From Christiangramia portivictoriae DSM 23547 (lineage in GTDB: Bacteria > Bacteroidota > Bacteroidia > Flavobacteriales > Flavobacteriaceae), in assembly GCF_000423045.1 (NCBI RefSeq), contig NZ_AUHF01000008.1, forward strand, positions 124,001-188,000: a stretch of 64,000 nt of DNA. The letters are read 5' to 3'. The notes beneath the pieces are model-generated. The model was not told the DNA's origin, ran no database searches, and saw only the letters and a program-made list of their open reading frames with translations. Below, one piece after another: positions 45,476-63,211 of this stretch; position 1 is the stretch's first letter; each line of letters begins with the position of its first letter. A program made the position numbers and the translations under genes.

Positions 45476-47017
45476 CTATAAGTTAAATTTAATACCCTGA
45501 GCTAAAGGTAAATCAGTACCATAATTTACAGTGCAGGTTTGCCTCCTCATGTAGGATTTCCAGGCATCAGAACCACTTTCTCTTCCTCCACCTGTTTCTT
45601 TTTCACCACCAAATGCTCCTCCGATTTCGGCTCCAGATGTTCCTATATTAATATTGGCGATCCCACAATCTGAACCCTCAAAAGAAAGAAATTCTTCAAC
45701 TTCTCGTAGATTCAAACTAAACAGTGCAGAAGACAACCCTTGAGGAACATTATTATTTAATTTAATAGCCTCTTCTATTGATTTATACTTAACAATATAT
45801 ACTATTGGGGCAAAGGTTTCTGTTTTCATAATCTCCAGATTTAGATCTGCTTCTATAATCGTAGGAGCTACGTAACATTGTGAACAGTTATCTCCAACTA
45901 AAACCATTTTTCCACCCGAAATTATCTTTGCCCCTTGTTTTTTAGCTAATTCAATAGTTAAATAGTAATTATTCACCGCATCTTCATCTATTAATGGCCC
46001 CATATGATTCTCTTCATTCAATGGATCGCCAATTTCTATTTGTTCAAATGCATTTTTTAATTGTCTTAGAAATTTATTGTAAATATTTTCGTGCACTATT
46101 AATCGTCGTGTAGAAGTACAACGTTGACCTGCTGTACCTATAGCCCCAAAAACCAATGCTGGCAATGCTTTTTCAATATCTGCATGTTCGGAAAGTATTA
46201 TTGCGTTATTCCCTCCAAGTTCGAGAATAGATTTACCTAATCTTTTTCCTACTCGCTGAGCAACATCTCTTCCCATAGCAGTACTACCTGTGGCTGAAAT
46301 CAAGGAAATACGACTATCCTCAGCCATTTTCTTTCCTATTTCTAAATCTCCCATTATTAAAGAAGAAATACCCTCCGGTAAATTATTACTTTTTAAAACC
46401 CTGGAAAAAATCTCCTGACAAGCAATCGAGGAAAACGGTGTTTTTTCTGAAGGTTTCCATATACAAACATTTCCGCAAACTAATGCAATAGCTGTATTCC
46501 AGGCCCAAACCGCTACAGGAAAATTAAATGCCGAAATAACACCTACAATTCCTAAGGGATGCCATTGTTCAAATAACCGGTGAGCAGGTCTTTCAGATTG
46601 TATTTGAAGACCATATAATTGTCGTGACAAACCCGTTGCGAATTCGCAGATATCGATCATTTCCTGAACCTCGCCATACCCTTCCTGCAGAGATTTACCC
46701 ATTTCATAACTAATCAAAGTTCCTAAGGCCTCCTTTTCTTTTCTTAACTCCTCACCAAATTGTCTTACAATATTTCCGCGTCCTGGCGCTGGTATTTTTC
46801 TCCATTCTAGGAATGCATGCTCAGCTGTATTTATTACATTTTCATATCCTTCACTGGAAAGAAAACTTATTTCACCTATCTGCCTGTTATCTACTGGAGA
46901 AATTATTCTTCTACCTTTAGTTTCTTCACAATACCTATTTTCCAATCCTGTACTGTAACTATAAAAAGGACTTTCAATTTTTAGTTTATTCAATATTTCT
47001 ATGGGTGATTTTCTCAT
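45476..47017 (-). CDS. Alpha-aminoadipate semialdehyde dehydrogenase (ALDH7 family)
   Basis: A 513-residue cytoplasmic aldehyde dehydrogenase. It resembles ALDH7A1 over its length: IPAPGRGNIVRQFGEELR, EMGKSLQEGYGEVQEM, GVISAFNFPVAVWAWN, SILELGGNNAI (Glu266), GTAGQRCTSTRRL (Cys300), GSDCGIANINIGTSGAEIGG and the C-terminal GGGRESGSDAWKSYMRRQT. ALDH7 enzymes oxidise alpha-aminoadipate-delta-semialdehyde (in equilibrium with piperideine-6-carboxylate) to alpha-aminoadipate with NAD(P)+, a step in lysine and hydroxylysine breakdown. Its start is coupled to the stop of the DUF1338 gene. The same aldehyde is the expected product of the kinase/phospho-lyase fusion at 57085 if its substrate is hydroxylysine. 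Confidence 0.88.
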   Translation of the reverse strand: MRKSPIEILNKLKIESPFYSYSTGLENRYCEETKGRRIISPVDNRQIGEISFLSSEGYENVINTAEHAFLEWRKIPAPGRGNIVRQFGEELRKEKEALGTLISYEMGKSLQEGYGEVQEMIDICEFATGLSRQLYGLQIQSERPAHRLFEQWHPLGIVGVISAFNFPVAVWAWNTAIALVCGNVCIWKPSEKTPFSSIACQEIFSRVLKSNNLPEGISSLIMGDLEIGKKMAEDSRISLISATGSTAMGRDVAQRVGKRLGKSILELGGNNAIILSEHADIEKALPALVFGAIGTAGQRCTSTRRLIVHENIYNKFLRQLKNAFEQIEIGDPLNEENHMGPLIDEDAVNNYYLTIELAKKQGAKIISGGKMVLVGDNCSQCYVAPTIIEADLNLEIMKTETFAPIVYIVKYKSIEEAIKLNNNVPQGLSSALFSLNLREVEEFLSFEGSDCGIANINIGTSGAEIGGAFGGEKETGGGRESGSDAWKSYMRRQTCTVNYGTDLPLAQGIKFNL

Positions 47018-47922
47018 TATTTCAACTGTTGTGATTCATAGGTAGATTCAAAAATTTTATCTGCATTTCCGGTTTCAAAACCATCACGACGGTGATCCTT
47101 CTTTATTTTGGATAGGGGTAAATCGGAAAATTCCGGCAATACCAGTCGTTGAGCAAATTCAACATAACTGCCTGGTATTTCGATAACTTCTGAACCTAGA
47201 AAATTAGCTCTCACTTTACCGGCTACCGAACTGCTTTGCTTTAAAAGTCCATCTCGACTTTCCTTTATTTCTCCTCCTGAATTATTTAATTTTATTTCTA
47301 TGGATTTTAAAAAGTCATTAAATTTTTCAAGTCGGTTATAGTCTTCAGGTAGATCATGGATACTTATAGTAAAATGATTTAAATAATAGCGATTATAAAT
47401 TACCCAAGCTGCATATTCACTTTCTTCAAGTAGGCTTTGATAATCATCCAGCGTTGGTAATTCCCATAATGCGGAAGTAAAAAAGTCAGAAACCTCGCTT
47501 ACATTTTTAAAATCTATGTTATCCACTGGGTCTGAATTTATATTTTTAGTGTATTTCTGGATAATTTTCTGGGCATTCTGACTTAAATCTGAAACCCTTA
47601 ACTCACTGATAAAGATCCGTGGATATTTATTTTCTGGATGCGAATACCAAAAAGCGTTTAATTTTTTCTCGGGAAAAAAATAATAGTCTCGTTTTTCATA
47701 GCCATAATGAAGGAAAATTTTTTCAAGTGAAGTTATTCCTAGGTACGGTAACCCCAGTGTACGGAAGGCTATATGGTCATTAATTATATCTTCTTCCTTG
47801 GAAATCATTCCTTTTTCAAGCATTCCATTTATTATTCTATATACGTCTGGAACCCTTTCTTTATATGGAATTATTAAAGAGTTTAATAATTCATTCAAAT
47901 CATTTTCTGTACTGAATTTCAT
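47017..47922 (-). CDS. DUF1338 protein, HglS-like (2-oxoadipate dioxygenase/decarboxylase family)
   Basis: A 301-residue protein of the DUF1338 family. Characterised HglS enzymes convert 2-oxoadipate to D-2-hydroxyglutarate with Fe(II) and O2. Likely equivalents of its metal ligands are His50 (in NDHIAFRT, which keeps the substrate-binding HxxxR Arg54), His183 (LNHFTISIH) and Glu255 (GSYVEFAQR). It is shorter than the about 460-residue Pseudomonas enzyme, as many family members are. It lies directly upstream of the ALDH7 gene (sharing one base) and downstream of SusD. The pairing fits the aminoadipate to 2-oxoadipate to hydroxyglutarate route; the aminotransferase for the middle step is not in the window. 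Confidence 0.82.
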   Translation of the reverse strand: MKFSTENDLNELLNSLIIPYKERVPDVYRIINGMLEKGMISKEEDIINDHIAFRTLGLPYLGITSLEKIFLHYGYEKRDYYFFPEKKLNAFWYSHPENKYPRIFISELRVSDLSQNAQKIIQKYTKNINSDPVDNIDFKNVSEVSDFFTSALWELPTLDDYQSLLEESEYAAWVIYNRYYLNHFTISIHDLPEDYNRLEKFNDFLKSIEIKLNNSGGEIKESRDGLLKQSSSVAGKVRANFLGSEVIEIPGSYVEFAQRLVLPEFSDLPLSKIKKDHRRDGFETGNADKIFESTYESQQLK

Positions 47923-63000: not shown

Positions 63001-63211
63001 TGAAAAAGCCGCATCTGCTTCCGGACTAGTACCTGTAACTAAAAAACATGGAGCTGATATAAAATTGGGGGAAACTTTACAATGGAATATAGATTATTTG
63101 CAAATGGGTGTGGGAGGTGATACTTCCTGGGGGAGACTAGTTCATCCGGAGTATACTATTAAGCCGAATCCCTATTCATATAGTTTTATTATTCAACCAA
63201 ACCTGAAATAA
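60086..63211 (+). CDS. Secreted GH2 beta-galactosidase (LacZ-like)
   Basis: A 1041-residue protein from the ATG at 60086, which begins a signal peptide ([21 protein letters not shown]); an earlier in-frame ATG at 60056 lies inside the previous gene. The five-domain LacZ layout is visible: sugar-binding domain (about 65-235), Ig-like domain, TIM barrel with [12 protein letters not shown] (acid/base Glu475) and [13 protein letters not shown] (nucleophile Glu537), and the C-terminal Bgal small chain (about 750-1035, [14 protein letters not shown]). It removes terminal beta-galactose in the periplasm. After the GH63 enzyme takes off glucose, it could cleave Gal-beta-O-hydroxylysine. It starts 19 bases after the fusion gene, the same operon. 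Confidence 0.9.

Follow-up and report, generated by a model that had tools for sequence, protein, structure and literature searches.

In animals, hydroxylysine is broken down by a kinase (HYKK), a class-III phospho-lyase dependent on pyridoxal phosphate (PLP), PHYKPL, and the aminoadipate semialdehyde dehydrogenase ALDH7A1, while the glucosidase that acts on collagen, the most abundant animal protein, is PGGHG (EC 3.2.1.107), a member of family GH65. To our knowledge, no bacterial catabolic route for the hydroxylysine-linked disaccharide of collagen has been described. Here we analyse a locus of Christiangramia portivictoriae DSM 23547, which occupies positions 45476-63211 of a 64,000-nucleotide stretch of DNA (hereafter the window; C5:124001-188000, from a genome of 3.27 Mb assembled into 8 contigs). 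Judging from its sequence, this locus very likely serves the uptake and deglycosylation of collagen Glc-Gal-hydroxylysine, followed by conversion of hydroxylysine to 2-oxoglutarate.

The succession of kinase, phospho-lyase and semialdehyde dehydrogenase proposed here is that of the animal pathway, but in the locus the kinase and the lyase form one polypeptide, they are tied to glycosidases and a SusC/SusD pair, and the proposed end of the route leads through HglS. The candidate glucosidase belongs not to GH65 but to GH63; it has the fold (TMq 0.81) and the catalytic positions in common with Escherichia coli YgjK, an enzyme whose natural role is not settled, although the two are about 24% identical in a structural alignment, the chain is shorter and the score falls below the family cut-off. 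The last steps (HglS and D-2-hydroxyglutarate dehydrogenase) are those of bacterial lysine catabolism via HglS, whereas the entry proposed here is glycosylated hydroxylysine and the HglS gene follows SusC/SusD in the same run. An adjoining operon shares an epimerase, a DAO-type oxidase, a DHDPS-family protein and an aldehyde dehydrogenase (ALDH) with 4-hydroxyproline (4-Hyp) operons of the LhpA, B, C and G type, but it also has an M24 peptidase and lies next to the hydroxylysine locus. Finally, a SusC/SusD pair, an ECF sigma factor with FecR and several glycosidases are common to the locus and to the polysaccharide utilisation loci (PULs) of Bacteroidota, from which the locus differs by also encoding the amino-acid catabolism of the aglycone. 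Among the matches listed in open-licence papers, judged by title and the start of the abstract, none describes a bacterial locus of such kind. We place the novelty in the coupled locus and not in the fusion itself, because bacterial kinase-lyase fusions may already be mentioned in the 2012 study in which the animal hydroxylysine enzymes were identified, and the literature covered was that under open licence.

Gene order and recurrent linkage

The locus is made of two divergent, operon-like runs spaced by 272 bases (Table 1). The minus run has the order ECF sigma-FecR-SusC-SusD-HglS-ALDH7 (gaps of 83, 75, 12, 75 and -1 bases) and contains, as in PULs, SusC and SusD homologues side by side (TIGR04056; PF07980/PF14322); the plus run has the order GH63-fusion-GH2 (gaps of 2 and -11 bases). 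Protein families, gene order, recurrent linkage and conserved catalytic residues are the basis of our interpretation, and from them we infer all substrates, the order of the steps, transport and regulation.

Linkage was studied in 149 genera of Flavobacteriaceae, each represented by one genome. Matches to the fusion were found in 59 genomes and classed as full-length in 34 (including a contig-edge fragment, G037), short two-domain in 23 (including two fragments of unsure type, G062 and G079, of 307 and 365 residues, the former at a contig end) and partial in two (G033, G070); the GH63 count is unaffected by the three fragments. GH63 (E<=1e-40) is present in 16 genomes, namely in 15/34 with a full-length fusion, 1/23 with a short one and 0/92 others (Fisher 1.8e-10), and in 15/15 cases it is found on the same contig as the full-length fusion, within 13.4 kb, and in 11 of them within 220 bases. 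In G096, which has GH63 and no full-length fusion, a GH2-GH63 pair lies beside a gene resembling 3-hydroxyproline (3-Hyp) dehydratase, a reductase gene and a 4-Hyp operon (L237).

The 4-Hyp epimerase is present in 29/34 full-length, 18/23 short and 36/92 other genomes, and where both genes occur, no more than 20 kb separate it from the fusion in 16/29 full-length versus 0/18 short genomes. A proline-racemase paralogue (3-Hyp-dehydratase-like, ~33% identical) occurs in 14/34, 4/23 and 1/92 genomes, respectively, and within 20 kb of the fusion in 7/14 full-length versus 0/4 short ones. The best model of the two paralogues tested is trans-3-hydroxyproline dehydratase (372.8 and 364.3 vs cut-off 540), and the second catalytic Cys is replaced by Thr in 7/7 examined. 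An OCD-family gene stands beside the paralogue in all seven examined neighbourhoods that contain it, and the one tested scores as a pyrroline-2-carboxylate reductase (380.6 vs 322).

Among neighbourhoods of up to 20 kb, 0/8 of those around short fusions have any partner gene. In addition, 1259 open reading frames from 41 neighbourhoods were clustered, and the clusters found in four or more full-length genomes include the 4-Hyp genes, GH63, GH2, galactokinase (GalK) and GalT (5 genomes), aldose epimerase (6), a peptidase of the S9 dipeptidyl-peptidase type (5) and M24 (6, the genome studied here included). No member of these clusters occurs near the eight short fusions, an absence that weighs less because 10-20 kb were covered in those genomes, as against about 38-56 kb in 20 full-length genomes. 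RuvC, HemN, BlaI/M56 and DUF885 look like plain synteny, and we do not claim them as parts of the locus. The short fusions were dropped as a pure negative control, given that a two-domain fusion sits in such a locus in genus g128 (see below). Co-occurrence of HglS with the fusion across genera is not significant and was dropped as support, and the mere presence of ALDH7 was rejected as evidence because 138/149 genera have one, so that only extra copies inform. A second copy (E<=1e-140) was found in only 3/149 genomes (G000, G006, G021), and in all three of them one copy lies at most about 10.4 kb from the fusion.

A second assembly of the same functions was found in a phylum sample of 395 genomes, where GH63 (E<=1e-60) is present in 11 and is accompanied by the fusion, in the stretch read, in six, all of them Flavobacteriaceae. 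Four of these six belong to genus g128, several other genomes of which are in the sample and have no GH63. In two of the four (L228, L229), one co-directional run comprises HglS, ALDH7 (824.9 vs 730 for NF050084 in L229), SusC, SusD, GH63, a GH42 beta-galactosidase, the two-domain fusion and a FAD/Fe-S protein similar to D-2-hydroxyglutarate dehydrogenase (D2HGDH); in L231 the run contains HglS, ALDH7, GH63, GH42, the fusion and the D2HGDH-like protein, without SusC and SusD there, and L227 has the fusion, GH42, GH63, SusD and SusC, with no matches to HglS, ALDH7 or D2HGDH. The GH42 enzyme has no significant similarity to GH2, and in a tree of the lyases (which left out 6/33 full-length, 3/8 short and 1/11 named rows, the trimming motif being absent) the g128 proteins group in a separate clade (100/100), outside both the full-length fusions of the Flavobacteriaceae type and the clade of unlinked short fusions. 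That the same set of functions recurs in g128 with partly different proteins would be difficult to account for if the steps did not belong together. As a separate observation, a locus from another class (L232, 8015-9247, family f24) has the order SusC-SusD-GH2-(unknown)-Orn/Arg/DAP decarboxylase family-GH63 and no fusion; its amino-acid decarboxylase might be an alternative means of handling the hydroxylysine aglycone.

Within the genus of C. portivictoriae, G157 has the whole block of 32 kb, with the hydroxyproline genes, at a nucleotide identity of 97.4%, while G155 has the part from HglS to GH2 at 81%, with no ALDH7 beside it and no hydroxyproline genes in 40 kb. For the eight genes compared with G155, dN/dS ranges from 0.04 to 0.13, and six of these genes have dS values greater than 1. 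According to the original prediction, it would be refuted if no other genome showed linkage between ALDH7-DUF1338 (HglS) and the GH63-fusion-GH2 operon; such linkage exists in G157 and, as far as HglS to GH2 is concerned, in G155, and in g128 ALDH7 and HglS share one run with GH63, GH42 and the fusion in three genomes. Recurrent linkage, which it had named as support, is seen for GH63 with the fusion and in the g128 run, with SusC/SusD in two genomes, and HglS is not enriched. The FecR gene (53038-54162) stands out against G157 with 86% identity and dS of 0.50, versus 0.005-0.08 in nine other genes compared, as if it had been replaced by recombination.

Named relatives were represented by the best 80 of 588 loci, which were selected by the fusion and are in some cases cut by contig ends; they are not a fully independent replicate, because they partly overlap the set of 149 genera (L145 with G063, L157 with G057). 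GH63 was found in 13 of them, GH2 in 14, the 4-Hyp epimerase in 12, the 3-Hyp-dehydratase-like gene in 10, ALDH7 in two and HglS in one. In Flagellimonas onchidii, SusD-SusC-FecR-sigma is divergent from GH63-fusion-GH2, i.e. the order is as in C. portivictoriae as far as the locus reaches, and other named loci come from Gelidibacter japonicus, Winogradskyella bathintestinalis, Cellulophaga omnivescoria and metagenome-assembled genomes (MAGs) of Cyclobacteriaceae and Chitinophagales. ALDH7 is near the fusion in both Latescibacterota loci among the matches listed. In Tenacibaculum finnmarkense TNO006 (L128), the reductase, the 3-Hyp-dehydratase-like gene, the fusion, M24 and the 4-Hyp genes are adjacent, with no GH63 in 23 kb.

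Enzymes of the locus and of the adjoining operon

The families and coordinates that the original prediction had given for all nine genes hold in Pfam and NCBIfam profile searches. A structure model of GH63 from a 15-sequence alignment (pLDDT 78.6, pTM 0.82) has E. coli YgjK entries as its best Foldseek matches (TMq 0.81), including 3w7w, the title of which names a complex of YgjK with 2-O-alpha-glucopyranosyl-alpha-galactopyranose. This compound is Glc-alpha-1,2-Gal, which has the outer linkage found in the disaccharide of collagen. Both the YgjK fold and a conserved catalytic acid and base are thereby present: D445 (WESGMD) and E638 (ENYNP), which we take to be the acid and the base, respectively, are invariant in 15/15 alignment rows, and E638 is aligned to E727 of YgjK. 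GH2 exceeds the LacZ-type equivalog cut-off (NF052611, 1016.9 vs 999). GH63, GH2 and SusD have signal-like N-termini, as read by eye, and the co-located GH63 and GH2 presumably act on a common substrate.

In the fusion, the APH kinase domain spans residues 32-250 and the Aminotran_3 lyase domain residues 588-983. Both parts had been recognized before, while a middle part (residues about 331-560) had been overlooked; we take it to be a remnant of an M23 peptidase with the motifs HxGxD and HLHF. In other full-length fusions, outside the genus, these motifs are present in 32/32 and 31/32 proteins, respectively, and in all three copies of the genus the zinc motifs are lost with the frame still open. 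Identity to the G155 protein is 55% in the middle part, 75% in the kinase and 84% in the lyase, with dN/dS of 0.14, 0.10 and 0.06, values that are rough because dS exceeds 1.6 in all three parts. The kinase has the catalytic loop HNDINDNN (202-209) and DFGD at 224, and the PLP-lysine of the lyase lies in the context IGKP. The best NCBIfam model is PRK06148, with 960.6 against a subfamily cut-off of 1128 (1138.1 in the sole scored relative with intact M23); this family is annotated 'hypothetical protein' and its relatives come from several phyla. One partial match (G033:C1:418890-420563) comprises the kinase and the middle part without a lyase and is 28% identical to the fusion.

ALDH7 scores above the NCBIfam cut-off for L-piperidine-6-carboxylate dehydrogenase (NF050084, 784.9 vs 730) and below that for the acetaldehyde dehydrogenase ExaC (205.8 vs 900), and antiquitin (2jg7) and alpha-aminoadipic semialdehyde dehydrogenase (4x0t) are among its relatives with a solved structure. 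It is the second paralogue in the genome, the other copy being located at C1:277567. The HglS protein is the sole HglS match in the genome (PF07063, 203.8 vs 25); among solved structures its closest relative is 'Hydroxyglutarate synthase' 6w1k (219 bits), and the two share the motifs DHxAFRT, LNHxTIS and SYxEFAxR. D2HGDH, a 2-aminoadipate transaminase and an inner-membrane transporter had all been listed as missing from the window; the latter two were not found here, and the first is not wholly missing: besides the protein of the g128 run, a homologue 52% identical to it is encoded on C3 of the genome studied here, and a homologue immediately follows the fusion in a Saprospiraceae MAG (L159). 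The best model of the C3 and L229 copies is the D-2-hydroxyglutarate dehydrogenase YdiJ (NF049975; 614.1 and 570.2).

The adjoining operon begins at the right edge of the window, 778 bases beyond GH2, and most of it was outside the view of the original prediction, which it supports. This minus-strand run encodes an AraC regulator, an M24 peptidase of the prolidase type (best NCBIfam model Xaa-Pro dipeptidase PepQ, 172 vs cut-off 630), a DAO-type FAD oxidoreductase, 4-Hyp epimerase, ALDH and a DHDPS-family protein, which we take to be a set of known enzymes of 4-Hyp catabolism. The epimerase, unique in the genome at E<=1e-20, is above its cut-off (PRK13971, 584.3 vs 376) and has Cys90 and Cys255, presumably the catalytic residues. 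Hydroxyproline and glycosylated hydroxylysine occur jointly in collagen, and the neighbouring hydroxyproline genes independently point to it.

Proposed route and alternative explanations

In the route that we propose, the ECF sigma/FecR pair would switch on SusC/SusD, by which Glc-Gal-hydroxylysine or short glycopeptides would cross the outer membrane. Exported GH63 would take off the alpha-1,2-linked glucose and exported GH2 the galactose that is beta-linked to the 5-OH, leaving free hydroxylysine, which the kinase half of the fusion would phosphorylate in the cytoplasm to 5-phosphohydroxylysine; from this product the lyase half would eliminate phosphate and ammonia to give 2-aminoadipate 6-semialdehyde. 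ALDH7 would oxidize the latter to 2-aminoadipate, a presumed transaminase would yield 2-oxoadipate, HglS would convert it to D-2-hydroxyglutarate, and the YdiJ-like dehydrogenase would produce 2-oxoglutarate; the adjoining operon would break down 4-Hyp. That the locus handles a collagen glycan, as originally predicted, is supported by the hydroxyproline operon, by the GH63-fusion linkage and by the recurrence in g128.

Several observations weigh against this interpretation. The activities of the proteins are deduced from sequence, and some scores are low: the best NCBIfam model of GH63 is PRK10137 (YgjK), at 338.6 against an equivalog cut-off of 625, and the two YdiJ-like proteins lie far below the NF049975 cut-off of 1350. 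PMC11012932 assigns the animal enzyme for the collagen disaccharide to GH65, not GH63. A search of the genome with the 2-aminoadipate transaminase model NF049976 returned sub-threshold class-III matches only, an inner-membrane transporter for the pathway was not identified, and no M9 collagenase was matched in the genome, although with a silent control, so that no conclusion follows. The locus is sporadic in its own genus, where the fusion occurs in 3/24 genomes. Across the family, GH63 is absent at E<=1e-40 from 19/34 genomes with a full-length fusion; HglS shows no enrichment together with the full-length fusion (4/34 vs 11/115), although in 3 of these 4 genomes it lies within 10 kb of it; 6/32 full-length neighbourhoods of about 20 kb (L041, L056, L058, L061, L065, L066) have none of GH63, GH2, hydroxyproline genes, M24, HglS, ALDH7 or SusC/SusD, and another (L067) has the DAO oxidase only. 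In the phylum sample, the other 5/11 GH63 genomes, all outside Flavobacteriaceae, have no fusion in 13-20 kb. The weakest points are the choice of the fusion between hydroxylysine and ethanolamine, the transaminase, the transporter, the missing enrichment of HglS and the GH63 genomes without a fusion.

It is unlikely that anything but animal collagen supplies the hydroxylysine glycan (candidates would be collagen-like proteins, whether viral, bacterial or from sponges, and collagen-domain proteins of plasma), or that the hydroxyproline derives from plant cell-wall glycoproteins. The locus itself names no source, no M9 collagenase was matched (with a silent control), and hydroxyproline alone is also present in plant glycoproteins. 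However, the 4-Hyp genes beside the locus are joined in relatives by 3-Hyp-dehydratase-like and pyrroline-2-carboxylate reductase genes and by prolidase- and prolyl-oligopeptidase-type peptidases, and 3-Hyp, 4-Hyp and glycosylated hydroxylysine jointly are typical of animal collagen.

The main rival substrate for the fusion is ethanolamine. It could be an ethanolamine kinase joined to an ethanolamine-phosphate phospho-lyase, producing acetaldehyde, with the glycosidases and amino-acid genes merely in the same catabolic island. The closest solved relative of the lyase is indeed the human ethanolamine-phosphate phospho-lyase (6tor, 461 bits), ahead of a bacterial phospholyase (5g4i, 307), which counts against the route proposed above; the two animal phospho-lyases are closely related, and the lyase sequence alone therefore cannot choose the substrate. 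Other substrates may also exist among relatives of the fusion, because the short fusions are without partners in the neighbourhoods examined and five of them form a separate clade in the tree. We nevertheless consider ethanolamine quite unlikely in this locus and propose activity on hydroxylysine from the linkage evidence: the ALDH passes the cut-off for piperidine-6-carboxylate dehydrogenase and not that for ExaC, HglS and the D2HGDH-like gene, for which no role in ethanolamine use is known, are in the run of the fusion in g128, and the D2HGDH homologue directly follows the fusion in the Saprospiraceae MAG.

That GH63 and GH2 serve another alpha-glucosyl-beta-galactoside, e.g. of lipopolysaccharide core or an algal glycoside, with the hydroxylysine pathway as a mere neighbour, is very unlikely: it would agree with the five fusion-less GH63 genomes of the phylum sample, three of which have SusC/SusD and GH2 nearby (L232, L233, L235), and GalK/GalT near GH63 are compatible with any galactoside, but 15/16 GH63 genomes of the family have the full-length fusion, mostly adjoining as in C. 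portivictoriae, and the trio recurs in g128 with a beta-galactosidase of another family.

Surroundings and significance of the locus

Table 1. Genes of the proposed collagen-glycan locus and of its right-hand neighbourhood (window coordinates).
Feature	Position	Strand	Profile match or remark
ALDH7 / L-piperidine-6-carboxylate (aminoadipate semialdehyde) dehydrogenase	45476..47017	-	NF050084
HglS (DUF1338), proposed 2-oxoadipate dioxygenase/decarboxylase yielding D-2-hydroxyglutarate	47017..47922	-	PF07063
SusD-like surface lipoprotein	47998..49545	-	PF07980, PF14322; lipoprotein-like N-terminus by eye
SusC-like TonB-dependent outer-membrane transporter	49558..52962	-	TIGR04056, 871.8 vs cut-off 368.25
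FecR anti-sigma factor	53038..54162	-	PF16344, PF04773
ECF sigma factor	54246..54806	-	PF08281, PF04542
YgjK-like GH63 alpha-glucosidase, probably exported; proposed Glc-alpha-1,2-Gal hydrolase	55079..57082	+	PF22422, PF21152
Fusion of APH-type kinase (proposed hydroxylysine kinase), degenerate M23 part and class-III PLP phospho-lyase (proposed 5-phosphohydroxylysine phospho-lyase)	57085..60066	+	PF01636, PF00202
LacZ-type GH2 beta-galactosidase, probably exported; proposed Gal-beta-O-hydroxylysine cleavage	60056..63211	+	NF052611
AraC-family gene, final bases in window	63990..64000	-	extends outside, to window-equivalent 64868
M24 peptidase and 4-Hyp operon, after AraC gene	window-equivalent 64878-70829	-	within L008:1991-8830

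On its left side, the locus is adjoined by a mobile element (window 36851-45350) that encodes two integrases, an AAA protein, a primase-like protein and a MobA-type relaxase; similarity to G157 starts within the relaxase gene, at window 44971. Further to the left (window 31461-33933), a SASA (sialate-acetylesterase-family) protein and a CE2/GDSL esterase are encoded by adjacent genes, perhaps part of another glycan locus. On the right, the hydroxyproline genes are followed by a two-component pair and by a gene for glutamate dehydrogenase (L008:12082-13362), which is also present in G157 and, close to the locus, in L134.

Taken together, some Bacteroidota quite probably carry islands for the utilization of collagen modifications, which would combine uptake, deglycosylation and oxidation of hydroxylysine to 2-oxoglutarate beside catabolism of 4-Hyp and, in relatives, of 3-Hyp, and the hydroxylysine module would have been built at least twice, once with a beta-galactosidase of another family and a distantly related fusion. 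If true, bacteria would have a route for glycosylated hydroxylysine, and the locus would offer a bacterial candidate for a collagen glucosidase that does not belong to GH65, as well as a candidate cellular role for YgjK-type GH63 enzymes. It would also give a function to the PRK06148 fusion family and, possibly, a marker for collagen-eating bacteria, and the defined locus yields five enzymes that can be tested.

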